Assembly: GCA_001871075.1 (NCBI GenBank)
Contig: MNUP01000081.1
Span: 1,537-9,810 of the forward strand
DNA length: 8,274 nt
Reading direction: 5' to 3'
Source of the DNA: Candidatus Desantisbacteria bacterium CG1_02_49_89
GTDB lineage: Bacteria; Desantisbacteria; UBA1551
The first letter of the stretch is position 1. Each line of letters starts with the position of its first letter. Of this stretch, positions 1,037-5,690 are shown one piece after another. The notes beneath the pieces are model-generated. The model had not been told where the DNA came from. It ran no database searches and saw nothing but the letters and a program-made list of their open reading frames with translations. The position numbers and the translations under genes are program-made.

Positions 1037-1102
1037 GACACAGATTTTTTGCTTCGCAACATTCATTGTGGGCTACGTCGATAAACGACGAATTCCACTG
1101 AT
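1037..1102 (+). repeat. Left flanking repeat of the GxxExxY gene, split by a small element
   Basis: GACACAGATTT (1037-1047) and TTCCACTGAT (1093-1102) together reconstitute the reverse complement of the uninterrupted 19-nt sequence at 1491-1509 on the far side of the GxxExxY gene. About 45 nt of unrelated hairpin-forming sequence sits between the two halves. The adjacent bases CACAGATGA include the gene's start codon, so the coding region begins directly out of the repeat. Confidence 0.7.
1047..1097 (+). repeat. Small hairpin element, copy 1 of 2 (conserved ends, variable centre)
   Basis: The layout is TTTTGC, a TTC loop, GCAACATTC (1056-1064), a 24-nt centre, then CGAATTCCA (1089-1097). The same ends, in the same order and with the same 24-nt spacing, occur at 4654-4708, but the centres do not align. 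TTGC/GCAA forms a short hairpin at the left end, and the right part contains CGTCG-ATAAA-CGACG (1076-1090). The element interrupts the left flanking repeat of the next gene. Insertion is inferred from that interruption. Confidence 0.6.
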
Positions 1103-1110
1103 GGCCACAG

Positions 1111-1490: not shown

Positions 1491-1509
1491 ATCAGTGGAA
1501 ATCTGTGTC
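1491..1509 (-). repeat. Right flanking repeat of the GxxExxY gene
   Basis: ATCAGTGGAAATCTGTGTC starts 2 nt after the GxxExxY stop codon. Its reverse complement matches the two halves found at 1037-1047 and 1093-1102, so the gene lies between inverted copies. The core ACACAGATT belongs to the CACAGATTAC-like repeat class also seen at 2922-3067. Confidence 0.7.
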
Positions 1510-3067: not shown

Positions 3068-3080
3068 ATGTTTCACATAA

Positions 3081-3086
3081 GAGGAG
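3081..3086 (+). promoter_or_regulatory. Ribosome binding site fixing the arginine decarboxylase start
   Basis: GAGGAG ends 5 nt before ATG 3092. The longer in-frame ATG at 3068 lies at the end of the AATCGGTGTAATC repeat and has no Shine-Dalgarno, so 3092 is the better start. Confidence 0.75.
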
Positions 3087-3091
3087 AAAGA

Positions 3092-3559
3092 ATGATAATC
3101 AAGACACCAACGAAGTTTTTTCTGGTTTCCGGGATCGGTGAAGGGAACACCCCGCTGACGGCTTTTGACAAAGCGCTTCTCAACGCGGGGGTAGCGAATA
3201 CGAACCTGCTCAAGGTTACGAGCATCCTGCCGCCCTCCTGCAAAGAGGTCAGGCCCTTCAGGCTGCCTTTCGGAGCCATTGTGCCGGTGGTCTACGCGCT
3301 GAAAATAAGTTCCACGAAAGACGAGCTTATAACAGCCACGGTGGGCATGGGAATACCCCAGGATGGGAAAAAACCGGGATTGATCATGGAATATTCGTGC
3401 ATAGGCGGCAGGAAGGAATCGGAAAGGATCCTGTGCGAAATGGTCGAAGAAGGATTCGCGAACAGGAAAGAAAAACTGAAGAAGATCAAGCTGGCGTCAG
3501 CTGAATGCAGGGTGAAAAGGACCGGCGCCGCATGCGCTGTAGTAGTCCTGTGGGATTGA
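3092..3559 (+). CDS. Pyruvoyl-dependent arginine decarboxylase
   Basis: This 155-aa protein (from ATG 3092) would decarboxylate arginine to agmatine and CO2 in the cytoplasm, using a pyruvoyl group made by self-cleavage instead of PLP. It shows the family pattern KFFLVSGIGEGNTPLTAFDKAL, then NLLKVTSILPP, with the expected cleavage before S44, whose residue would become the pyruvoyl group. GLIMEYSCIGG follows, with E100 in the place of the catalytic acid (E109 of the Methanocaldococcus jannaschii enzyme, from memory), and the end is TGAACAVVVLW. The residue before the processed Ser is Thr (T43), where the M. jannaschii enzyme has Ser-Ser. Length is normal and all core blocks are present. Downstream SpeE- and SpeB-like genes complete a route from arginine to spermidine, supporting arginine rather than a related amino acid as substrate. 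Two similar nested hairpins flank the gene. Confidence 0.93.
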   Translation: MIIKTPTKFFLVSGIGEGNTPLTAFDKALLNAGVANTNLLKVTSILPPSCKEVRPFRLPFGAIVPVVYALKISSTKDELITATVGMGIPQDGKKPGLIMEYSCIGGRKESERILCEMVEEGFANRKEKLKKIKLASAECRVKRTGAACAVVVLWD

Positions 3560-3578
3560 TGTCATAAATATACAAGTC

Positions 3579-3655
3579 AAAAGTCAAAATGCATCCCCCC
3601 TTGCCCTGAATGGGCAAGCAGGGGGGATTTCGCTACCAGCTCAAAAAGTCAAAAT
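3579..3655. repeat. Nested GC-rich hairpin between 12-nt direct repeats
   Basis: AAAAGTCAAAAT occurs identically at 3579-3590 and 3644-3655. Between the copies is a two-tier hairpin at 3593-3628: outer stem ATCCCCCC/GGGGGGAT, inner stem TTGCCC/GGGCAA (3601-3606 with 3612-3617), loop TGAAT and a 3' bulge GCA. The plan (outer stem, inner 6-bp stem, bulge on the 3' side) is the same as at 2948-2985, although the sequences differ. TTT follows the stem, but there is no real T-tract. The direct repeats could be an insertion footprint or simply part of the AGTCAAA-like tandem motifs common in these spacers. Confidence 0.65.
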
Positions 3656-3691
3656 TAAGGAATTTTCTTCTGAAATTTTAGTTTGAAACTC

Positions 3692-3722
3692 TGATACTAT
3701 GATACTATGACACTATGACACT
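3692..3722 (-). repeat. Tandem 8-nt units TGATACTA / TGACACTA
   Basis: Units run TGATACTA (3692-3699), TGATACTA (3700-3707), TGACACTA (3708-3715) and TGACACT (3716-3722). Their reverse complement is the heptamer AGTATCA/AGTGTCA found in tandem after the SpeB, FecR and beta-barrel genes, so this is the same motif in the other orientation. It ends 6 nt before the first possible ATG (3729) of the SpeE-like gene. Confidence 0.75.
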
Positions 3723-3730
3723 TTTATCAT

Positions 3731-3735
3731 GGAGG
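3731..3735 (+). promoter_or_regulatory. Ribosome binding site fixing the SpeE-like start
   Basis: GGAGG ends 5 nt before ATG 3741. It overlaps the G of the longer in-frame ATG at 3729, which itself has only repeat sequence upstream. Start 3741 gives MDLWFYEKH, matching the usual spermidine synthase N-terminus. Confidence 0.75.
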
Positions 3736-3740
3736 ACTGG

Positions 3741-4577
3741 ATGGACTTGTGGTTTTACGAGAAACACATACCCGGAACAGGCATTACGCTGAATGTCAAG
3801 GATATCCTTTACCATAAGAGGAGCAGGTATCAGGACGTAGCGATCGTGGATACCGCGGATTTCGGCAGGATGATGGTCATAGACGGCATGGTTATGCTGA
3901 CCGAAAGAGATGAGTTTGTCTATCACGACATGCTTACCCACGTTCCGCTTTTTGTGCACCCGAAGGCGGAAAACGTGCTTGTCATAGGAGGGGGGGACGG
4001 GGGAACTGTAAGGGAACTGGTCAAACACAGGAATATAAAAAAAATAACAATGGTGGAGATTGACAGAGATGTCATAAAAGCATCCCTGAAATATCTTCCT
4101 TCCCTGAGCCGCAGTCTTAAGAACCGCCGGGTCCGCCTTATAATAGATGACGGGCTCAAATACGTCCGTAGGCACAGGAACAGCTTTGACGTGATAATAC
4201 TTGATTCTTCAGACCCCGTTGGCCCGGCAAAAGGGCTTTTTTCCCTGAAATTCTTCAGGGACATCTACAAATGCCTTAAGAAGGACGGGATAATGGTAGC
4301 TCAGACCGAATCCCCCTTCATGTATGAAAAAGTGATAAGGGAAACATACCGCGTGCTGAGAAGGGTTTTTCCGGTAGCGCGTATGTATTACGCCCCCATA
4401 CCCACATATCCGTCAGGAGTCTGGAGTTTCGCCTTTGCAGGCAAAAGGTATGATCCGGTCATGAATTTTGACATTAAGCGGGCGGTAAAAAGGGGTTTCA
4501 AGACAAAGTATTACAACGAAGACGTGCACAGGGGCGCGTTCATGCTCCCCGAATTCATGAAAAATCTTATAAGATAA
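3741..4577 (+). CDS. speE: Polyamine aminopropyltransferase (spermidine synthase family)
   Basis: This 278-aa protein would transfer the aminopropyl group of decarboxylated S-adenosylmethionine to a diamine, giving spermidine (from putrescine) or N1-aminopropylagmatine (from agmatine). An N-terminal beta domain MDLWFYEKHIPG (1-12) through FGRMMVIDGMVMLTERDEFVYHDM (41-64) precedes a Rossmann methyltransferase-like domain. That domain carries GGGDGG (83-88), VEID (105-108) for the ribose, DDG (136-138), the catalytic DSSDPVGP (155-162), QTESPF (188-193) and YPSG (223-226). All signature blocks are intact and the length is normal for bacterial SpeE. It lies between the arginine decarboxylase and ureohydrolase genes on the same strand, separated from each by about 160-180 nt of repeats, so an operon is likely but unproven. 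Sequence alone does not decide between putrescine and agmatine as acceptor. S-adenosylmethionine decarboxylase is absent from the window. Confidence 0.92.
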   Translation: MDLWFYEKHIPGTGITLNVKDILYHKRSRYQDVAIVDTADFGRMMVIDGMVMLTERDEFVYHDMLTHVPLFVHPKAENVLVIGGGDGGTVRELVKHRNIKKITMVEIDRDVIKASLKYLPSLSRSLKNRRVRLIIDDGLKYVRRHRNSFDVIILDSSDPVGPAKGLFSLKFFRDIYKCLKKDGIMVAQTESPFMYEKVIRETYRVLRRVFPVARMYYAPIPTYPSGVWSFAFAGKRYDPVMNFDIKRAVKRGFKTKYYNEDVHRGAFMLPEFMKNLIR

Positions 4578-4604
4578 ACCACGGAGGCACGGAGACACAG
4601 AGAA
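4578..4604 (+). repeat. CACGGAGACACAGAG-type dispersed repeat
   Basis: Immediately after the SpeE-like stop lies a 27-nt sequence beginning ACCACGGAGG and ending GACACAGAGAA. It matches the reverse complement of 7397-7423 at 25 of 27 positions, so the window carries an inverted pair about 2.8 kb apart. Similar strings are, from memory, widespread in spacers of several uncultivated bacterial groups. Confidence 0.75.
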
Positions 4605-4633
4605 TTGCTTTAAATATATTCCTTGCTTTTGAT

Positions 4634-4654
4634 TCATAACTCATAATTCATAAT
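4634..4654 (+). repeat. Tandem 7-nt units TCATAAY
   Basis: Units are TCATAAC (4634-4640), TCATAAT (4641-4647) and TCATAAT (4648-4654). The same unit occurs inverted at 5585-5612. This repeat runs directly into copy 2 of the small hairpin element, and CCATAATTC resumes after that element, as if the element had landed within the repeat. Confidence 0.7.
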
Positions 4655-4708
4655 TTTGCCCTTTGGGCAACATTCTCGTGCTGTTTTACCGAGTGTTTTC
4701 GAATTCCA
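4654..4708 (+). repeat. Small hairpin element, copy 2 of 2 (conserved ends, variable centre)
   Basis: The layout is TTTTGC, CCTTTGG, GCAACATTC (4667-4675), a 24-nt centre, then CGAATTCCA (4700-4708). The left end folds as TTGCCC-TTT-GGGCAA (4656-4670). The centre has its own dyad, CTCG (4675-4678) with CGAG (4690-4693), extended by AACA (4669-4672) with TGTT (4694-4697). The outer segments match copy 1 at 1047-1097 exactly, with identical spacing, while the centres differ. Confidence 0.6.
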
Positions 4709-4738
4709 TAATTCTTAAATTAACATCGAGAGCAAACA

Positions 4739-5539
4739 GTGAAAAAGATAACTATATTCGGGTGTCCTTTTGACAGGACATCATCATGTAAAAAAGGTTC
4801 GCGTTTTGCCCCCCGTGAAATAAGGCGGATCATGAATGACGTTGAAGATTATTCGCCTTATTTTGACCGGGATCTGAGGGATATAAAGTTCCGGGATGAC
4901 GGGGACCTTGATATTTCAAGAATGCCTATGGAAAAAGCGCTGCAGGTTATAGAAAGCAAGGCCAGGGATATTCTAAAGGAAGGGGGCCTGCCTTTCGCGC
5001 TGGGAGGAGAGCATACTGTCAGCGTGGGTGCCGTAAGGGCGCTTAAAAGCAGGCACGCGGACCTGAAGGTTATCTGCCTGGACGCGCACTGCGACCTTAA
5101 GGATTCTTACTACGGCCAGAAAATGTGCCATGCGACAGCCTCAAGGCGGATGATGGACCTGGTCGGCGAGAGATCGCTTTTCATTTTCGGCGCAAGGTCA
5201 GGCGTAAGGGAGGAGTTTGAATTCGCAAGGAAAAGGAAAATGGCCTTTGATTTTTCCGCGGCACTGCTGGGGAAAGTCGTCAGATCTGTTTCCGGAAGTC
5301 CCGTGTATATTTCGGTTGACCTGGATGTTTTTGACCCGGGTGTTTTCCCCGGGACAGGCGTTGCCGAGCCGGGAGGCATAGGCCTGCCGGACTTCATCAA
5401 GGCACTAAAGCTTTTTTCGGATTTGAATATTGCGGGGATGGACGCGGTGGAACTCTCGCCTCCCTGCGACCCAAGCGAAGCTTCAACTTTTCTTGCCGCG
5501 ACCGCTGTAAGGGAAATGCTGCTGATGGCAGGCAGCTGA
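4739..5539 (+). CDS. speB: Agmatinase / ureohydrolase family protein
   Basis: This 266-aa enzyme of the arginase-agmatinase family would hydrolyse agmatine to putrescine and urea, or N1-aminopropylagmatine to spermidine and urea, using a binuclear Mn centre. All six metal ligands are visible: GGEH (H92), DAHCD (D115, H117, D119) and SVDLDVFDP (D194, D196). Further family blocks are FGCPFD near the N-terminus, FAPREIR (23-29), ARSGVREEF and PGTGVAEPGGI (204-214), and VELSPP. Cys118 replaces the more usual small or hydroxyl residue of DAHxD. The predicted start is GTG 4739 with a weak GAGAG (4728-4732) Shine-Dalgarno, and the protein then begins MKKITIFGCPFD, as expected. It closes the polyamine cluster begun by the arginine decarboxylase. 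An arginase role is possible, but a decarboxylase and an aminopropyltransferase next door favour agmatine or aminopropylagmatine. Confidence 0.92.
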   Translation: MKKITIFGCPFDRTSSCKKGSRFAPREIRRIMNDVEDYSPYFDRDLRDIKFRDDGDLDISRMPMEKALQVIESKARDILKEGGLPFALGGEHTVSVGAVRALKSRHADLKVICLDAHCDLKDSYYGQKMCHATASRRMMDLVGERSLFIFGARSGVREEFEFARKRKMAFDFSAALLGKVVRSVSGSPVYISVDLDVFDPGVFPGTGVAEPGGIGLPDFIKALKLFSDLNIAGMDAVELSPPCDPSEASTFLAATAVREMLLMAGS

Positions 5540-5574: not shown

Positions 5575-5584
5575 TTTAGCCTCA

Positions 5585-5612
5585 ATTATGAATTATGAGT
5601 TATGAATTATGA
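5585..5612 (-). repeat. Tandem 7-nt units RTTATGA
   Basis: There are four units: ATTATGA (5585-5591), ATTATGA (5592-5598), GTTATGA (5599-5605) and ATTATGA (5606-5612). They are the reverse complement of the TCATAAY units at 4634-4654, so this family also occurs in both orientations around the SpeB-like gene. Confidence 0.75.
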
Positions 5613-5635: not shown

Positions 5636-5679
5636 TCCCGAAGGGATCCCTTTGGGATAACTCAGGGCTTCAGCCCTGA
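5636..5679. repeat. Two adjacent GC-rich hairpins
   Basis: The first hairpin pairs TCCCGAAGGGA (5636-5646) with TCCCTTTGGGA (5647-5657), with one wobble and almost no loop. The second pairs TCAGGGC (5662-5668) with GCCCTGA (5673-5679) around TTCA. Neither is followed by a T-tract. They lie in the 260-nt spacer between the SpeB-like and FecR genes, which otherwise holds only short repeats and possible promoter sequence. Confidence 0.65.
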
Positions 5680-5690
5680 TGTATCTAAAC

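Follow-up and report, generated by a model that had tools for sequence, protein, structure and literature searches.

A candidate very small mobile repeat of 47–51 nucleotides between tandem array units in Candidatus Desantisbacteria bacterium CG1_02_49_89

The DNA studied here raises the question of why two short segments of one contig contain the same conserved ends around different cores, and what kind of element they represent. The window, i.e. the whole stretch of 8,274 nucleotides that was analysed, corresponds to positions 1,537–9,810 of the forward strand of contig MNUP01000081.1 of Candidatus Desantisbacteria bacterium CG1_02_49_89 (GCA_001871075.1). The two copies, here called the B copy (copy 1) and the A copy (copy 2), were found to contain the TTTGC block at 1048–1052 and 4655–4659, the GCAACATTC block at 1056–1064 and 4667–4675, and the CGAATTCCA block at 1089–1097 and 4700–4708, respectively. 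The shared blocks were in the same order and the gap between the last two was exactly 24 nucleotides in each copy, as the original prediction had described. Two 9-mers shared in collinear order were found at five offsets in the window; in 100 dinucleotide shuffles such offsets numbered 0.01 on average and never more than 1. The count of five takes in other repeats of the window as well. The minimal element was TTTGC...GAATT, and the CCA that follows GAATT belonged mostly to the array. The features of the two copies were as follows.

1037–1047, forward strand: left array flank GACACAGATTT of the B copy; matches half of the uninterrupted array at 1491–1509
1048–1094, forward strand: B-type element TTTGC...GAATT, 47 nucleotides; pattern and covariance-model matches, boundaries from the empty site
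1049–1059, forward strand: hairpin 1 of the B copy, TTGC-TTC-GCAA; DNA folding, pairing kept despite stem changes among copies
1076–1090, forward strand: hairpin 2 of the B copy, CGTCG-ATAAA-CGACG; folding, kept in most B copies
1095–1110, forward strand: right array flank CCACTGATGGCCACAG of the B copy; its first 8 nucleotides equal the other half of the uninterrupted array
1491–1509, reverse strand: inverted, uninterrupted copy GACACAGATTTCCACTGAT (the empty site); equals the joined B-copy flanks exactly
4631–4654, forward strand: left tandem array of the A copy, TTCATAA/TCATAAT units; read from the sequence, with the inverted uninterrupted copy at 5584–5607
4655–4705, forward strand: A-type element TTTGCCC...GAATT, 51 nucleotides; pattern and covariance-model matches
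4656–4670, forward strand: hairpin 1 of the A copy, TTGCCC-TTT-GGGCAA; folding and stem variants
4671–4697, forward strand: hairpin 2 region of the A copy, CATTC...GAGTG with a G-T pair; RNA folding
4706–4714, forward strand: right array unit CCATAATTC of the A copy; read from the sequence
5584–5607, reverse strand: uninterrupted copy of the A-copy array; 24 nucleotides, 100% complementary to 4632–4655

The B copy splits a CACAGATT repeat, and the sequence without the element was found in the same window. The left flank GACACAGATTT (1037–1047) joined to CCACTGAT (1095–1102) is the exact reverse complement of the 19 nucleotides at 1491–1509, which form a paralogous array on the far side of the same gene, so that the empty counterpart comes from the same genome and not from another strain. 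A shared TT leaves an ambiguity of 2 nucleotides at the ends of the B copy, and a longer target duplication is therefore excluded at that site. The A copy was located inside a TCATAAY tandem whose uninterrupted array is present at 5584–5607. Both placements had been claimed beforehand and were correct, and the suggested search for empty sites thus yielded an exact counterpart within the genome. The gene between the inverted CACAGATT arrays of 1037–1509 is of the GxxExxY-type PDDEXK_3 kind (1111–1488), like a gene carried between array arms; 1536–2915 encodes a cyclic-nucleotide-binding domain fused to a PQQ-type beta-propeller. The region 3068–5539 contains a polyamine cluster (pyruvoyl-dependent arginine decarboxylase, spermidine synthase and an arginase-family, agmatinase-like gene), and the A copy is inserted between its last two genes.

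Further copies were found throughout the source genome (2.48 Mb). The proposed pattern GCAACATTC-N20–30-CGAATTCCA gave 13 exact matches, with 0 for the reversed-pattern control, and a relaxed pattern with a loosened right end gave 16 copies. A covariance model built from these 16 aligned copies matched 33 places at E<0.01, followed by a doubtful 34th (L061). The 33 copies were about 47–55 nucleotides long, without coding capacity, and nearly all were located between open reading frames (ORFs); in three cases there was a marginal overlap with an ORF that is short or weak. The source-genome copies scored 37–75 bits, except for L060 (28.7) and the doubtful L061 (22.7). The pattern scan of about 85,000 GTDB species gave 12 matches, of which a single one was cyanobacterial, and that of the IMG/VR viral sequences gave 32; by the model all scored at most 28 bits, the former being chance-like on inspection and the latter at chance level. 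In one other genome of the phylum, the covariance model found no family copy. The A/B element is, judged from these sequence searches, a real family that is apparently restricted to one lineage. The 33 copies and the zero controls rule out chance similarity of the two window copies, and it is scarcely credible that they owe their likeness to chance or are a piece of a larger unrelated repeat: the A copies do lie in a bigger mosaic of array and REP sequence, but the flanks diverge right outside TTTGC...GAATT into different arrays.

The copies fall into subfamily A, to which window copy 2 belongs, and subfamily B, to which window copy 1 belongs, and the second hairpins of the two are built differently. 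A typical subfamily A sequence is TTTGCCCTTCGGGCAACATTCTCGTGTGGTTTTGCAGAATGTTTTCGAATT, and the subfamily B sequence is TTTGCTTCGCAACATTCTTTGTGGGCTACGTCGATAAACGACGAATT. The cores had been described as unrelated and of fixed length. The first claim holds only in part, since intermediates such as L012/L039 and L028/L042 bridge the A and B cores in the 16-copy alignment; the core is 24 nucleotides long in both window copies, but 23–25 nucleotides across the family, so that the spacing varies. Hairpin 1 begins one base inside the left end of the element and pairs in 33 of 34 copies, with the stems TTGC, TTGCC, TTGCCC/TTGCCT, TTC or TTGAACT and a mostly constant TTC loop. Compensatory stems were TTGC/GCAA, TTGCCC/GGGCAA and, in the doubtful L061, TTGAACT/AGTTCAA. 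Hairpin 2 lies near the right end. Most A copies form its arms from AACATTCT/AGAATGTT or CATTCT/AGAATG (core CATTC/GAATG), and most B copies from (C)GTCG/CGAC(G); in L056, inspection gave the left arm ATATTC and the right arm TATATT, against ACATTC and GAATGT in A copies. As single-stranded DNA, the B copy of the window folds into its two hairpins whichever strand is taken (z about −2.1), and the folding of the element is equally compatible with a DNA hairpin and with RNA. TTTGC at one end and GAATT at the other do not form an inverted repeat, and terminal inverted repeats are absent.

The maintained pairing of the hairpins is also what would be expected of a structured RNA (a leader, regulatory or terminator element) under selection in intergenic regions, the second possibility that had been named at the outset, then with a variable core. 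Eight of the 11 A copies are co-oriented with both neighbouring genes (orientation 8 vs 2), and A copies are often found 20–40 nucleotides from the start of the downstream ORF. This orientation bias is, however, not independent evidence, since the A copies share a larger composite, and the B copies show no bias (8 vs 7 in gene orientation) and no conserved T run. Copies occur in a single lineage, beside loci that are unrelated to one another. Against Rfam 15, the sole window match above the gathering score was a tRNA, with none at the element. The lack of an Rfam match and the unrelated neighbours make a conserved regulatory RNA unlikely, and the structured-RNA explanation as a whole is disfavoured to the point of being highly improbable.

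Most copies were found to sit between short tandem repeat units, in one orientation and register, and the orientation relative to the array unit was identical in all array copies listed. The host arrays consist of CACGAATT or CACGGATT units with two free spacer bases, of CAGTGATT/CGGTGATT, of CACAGATT, of CATAATT or of AATTTAAAATT, and the approximate junction of insertion is (G)AT(T)N^NCA. The spacing of CACGRATT units is 2 nucleotides when empty vs 49 when filled, with the 47-nucleotide element between the two spacer bases. In the CACG arrays the B copies differ by 0–4 per 47 bases, and their spread is therefore recent. Four copies (L040, L042, L058 and L059) were without a recognisable array. 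Arrays of the CACGRATT-NN type were also found in three genomes of other phyla (G025, G094 and G133; L195–L209), with 25 matches of host arrays in G025 and 13 in G094, and none in G001, a genome of the same order. The arrays therefore exist independently of the element.

The bases beside the element in CACG arrays were G...G in 7 of 9 copies, whereas GG occurred in 0 of 100 uninterrupted spacers and G at the first spacer position in 1 of 100 (Fisher p about 1e-8). Either these junction bases are carried by the element or there is selection of the target; simple insertion into a random array leaves them unexplained. A base-pairing guide model (GAATTG flank with CAACATTC) was dropped, as it fits the G...G copies only.

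The G...G junction bases travel with 7 of 9 copies in CACG arrays, which favours the rival view that the element arose once per array type and, without an enzyme of its own, passed from one array to another through template switching, slippage or gene conversion. Such copying would need no transposase to explain why register and orientation are fixed, and the at least 144 matches of CACGRATT-NN-CACGRATT in the source genome supply the homology. It would also make B copies group by array type, as they do (permutation p about 0.001). A composite of an upstream CTCAGGG REP and array is common to eight A copies, which points to multiplication within something larger, and all five copies of an unrelated hairpin element are placed in almost the same position. 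However, the same element is found in differing unit sequences and in the four non-array places, which homologous copying cannot bring about. Near-identical elements are present in copies flanked on both sides by CACGGATT and in copies flanked on both sides by CACGAATT, and the array positions of the window A copy and of L001 differ from that of the common composite. Copying between arrays as the whole explanation is possible, but we regard it as unlikely.

We consider that the element is probably a non-autonomous, very small dispersed mobile repeat of 47–51 nucleotides without coding function, a reading drawn from sequence comparison and in line with the first possibility in the original prediction, a small non-autonomous mobile element. 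It is supported because there are about 33 dispersed copies, an exact empty site within the genome, several unrelated arrays entered in one register and orientation, and near-identical recent copies. The element would be recognised as a folded single strand, and a HUH/Y1 transposase acting in trans would join it at the junction between array units, the tandem arrays serving as landing pads; recombination between arrays may help its spread within one array type. It is more likely that insertion by a trans-acting enzyme was the founding event and that array recombination added to the spread.

Ten Y1_Tnp matches were found in the source genome. The A/B element flanked 0 of the 10 loci (within about 1.5 kb), in a genome that is 93.5% complete and from which a gene may be missing. 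Searches with the left end only and with the right end only detected partial copies of both kinds, but no transposase gene between ends. Since no Y1 locus is flanked by the A/B element and no two-ended copy surrounds a transposase, we infer the enzyme, which would most plausibly be a HUH/Y1 transposase of the IS200/IS605-REP type. One Y1 pair (contig C23; L080, L081) is flanked by CTCAGGG...CCCTGA palindromes, and this palindrome also precedes most A copies. The ten Y1_Tnp matches, one pair of them with REPs on its flanks, make it plausible that the host cell can mobilise hairpins as single strands. In the window, 5659–5680 contains the CTCAGGGCTTCAGCCCTGA palindrome, which flanks the Y1 transposase pair on C23 and is likely of their REP family. 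Other Y1 loci were located between GGGGAC-type inverted repeats, which match the GGGGWSAS terminal repeats described for TIR-associated tyrosine transposases (PMC3733652).

Two candidates for a parent element were rejected. The left-end-only copy at C3:29576 (L084) does not continue beyond the left block, and about 350 nucleotides of contig follow it, whereas at C13:1743 the downstream ORF is, by eye, unlike the Y1 transposases of the genome. At about 1743–1840 of the reverse strand of this C13 region (L233, C13:1–8400), a left-hairpin fragment and a right-hairpin piece are split by GATTACAGTGATT array units, and this rearranged copy adjoins a lone GGGGACGGGTTC repeat.

Among described systems, the closest kind appears to be the cyanobacterial small dispersed repeats (SDRs), the comparison being made by description. 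The SDRs that Elhai et al. described in 2008 from Nostoc and its relatives are reportedly tiny, non-coding and hairpin-forming, are located within tandem heptamer arrays and have a recent, lineage-confined spread; they are said to be about 21–27 nucleotides long with one array sequence as target. The A/B element is likewise very small, dispersed, non-coding and hairpin-forming, in tandem arrays and in one lineage. It differs in its length of 47–51 nucleotides, about twice that of SDRs, its two hairpins and its several array targets, and its sequence is probably unrelated and comes from a different phylum. SDR5 inserts precisely between fixed nucleotides of the repeated target HIP1 (PMC4390886). 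The host arrays are of the same kind as STRR heptamers and the short tandem direct repeats between genes known as TAACTGA arrays (PMC4679880), which correspond to the landing pads and not to the element.

The REP/REPIN sequences with RAYT (TnpA-REP) are short hairpin repeats between genes, and their presumed mode of movement is in trans, as single-stranded DNA (PMC3116915, PMC2817692, PMC8266576). The A/B element is similarly a short intergenic hairpin, and its host genome encodes Y1 transposases, in one case clearly associated with a REP. Unlike REP/REPIN, it has no inverted doublets, flanks no transposase and is locked in its insertion to tandem arrays. An unpaired GTAG/CGTC tag at the foot of the hairpin was not found: GTAG was absent from the 16-copy alignment, and the CGTC of B copies lies inside the stem. 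PATEs and miniature IS200/IS605 derivatives contain hairpins near both ends, have neither terminal inverted repeats nor clear target duplication, and insert after a fixed tetra- or pentanucleotide. The A/B element resembles them in its subterminal hairpins, in the absence of terminal inverted repeats and target site duplication and in its fixed orientation and target, but it has no parent with matching ends and inserts between array units. A MITE of a DDE transposon was rejected, as terminal inverted repeats are lacking and the empty site allows at most 2 nucleotides of ambiguity for a target duplication. An integron attC site was also rejected, no R boxes being recognisable by eye.

A second hairpin element of 47 nucleotides, CCCCTGCCGCTTTCTCATGAAAGCAAGAGGCAGGGGTCCTTTAGGGA, unrelated to A/B, was found at 2949–2995 before a CACAGATT unit. 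It has five copies in the genome, and 5 of 5 stand directly before a CAGTGATT, CACAGATT or CGGTGATT unit, which suggests a preference for array junctions shared by more than one hairpin element. One copy is located inside a GGGGAC-flanked Y1 transposase element on C13. A wider proposal, which we offer as rather speculative and doubtful, is that the arrays are general landing pads, to whose unit junctions unrelated hairpins of about 47 nucleotides are delivered in fixed register and orientation by a dedicated enzyme or an RNA-templated route. If this were true, array spacer and element would be interchangeable modules.

Elements of fewer than 60 nucleotides are near the lower limit of mobile DNA, and how such elements move has been a question ever since the SDRs were described. 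By the description of SDRs and on sequence grounds, there is a reasonably good chance that the A/B family is another example of this smallest known kind of mobile DNA. It would stand independently of the SDRs, being from a distant phylum, and it combines exact boundaries and a clear empty site with a strict register in tandem arrays, a division into two subfamilies and recent copies that are nearly identical. The element is a defined substrate for testing single-strand transposases against array recombination as the agent of spread, and it offers a reason why tandem arrays and hairpins may co-occur in the intergenic regions of some uncultured bacteria.
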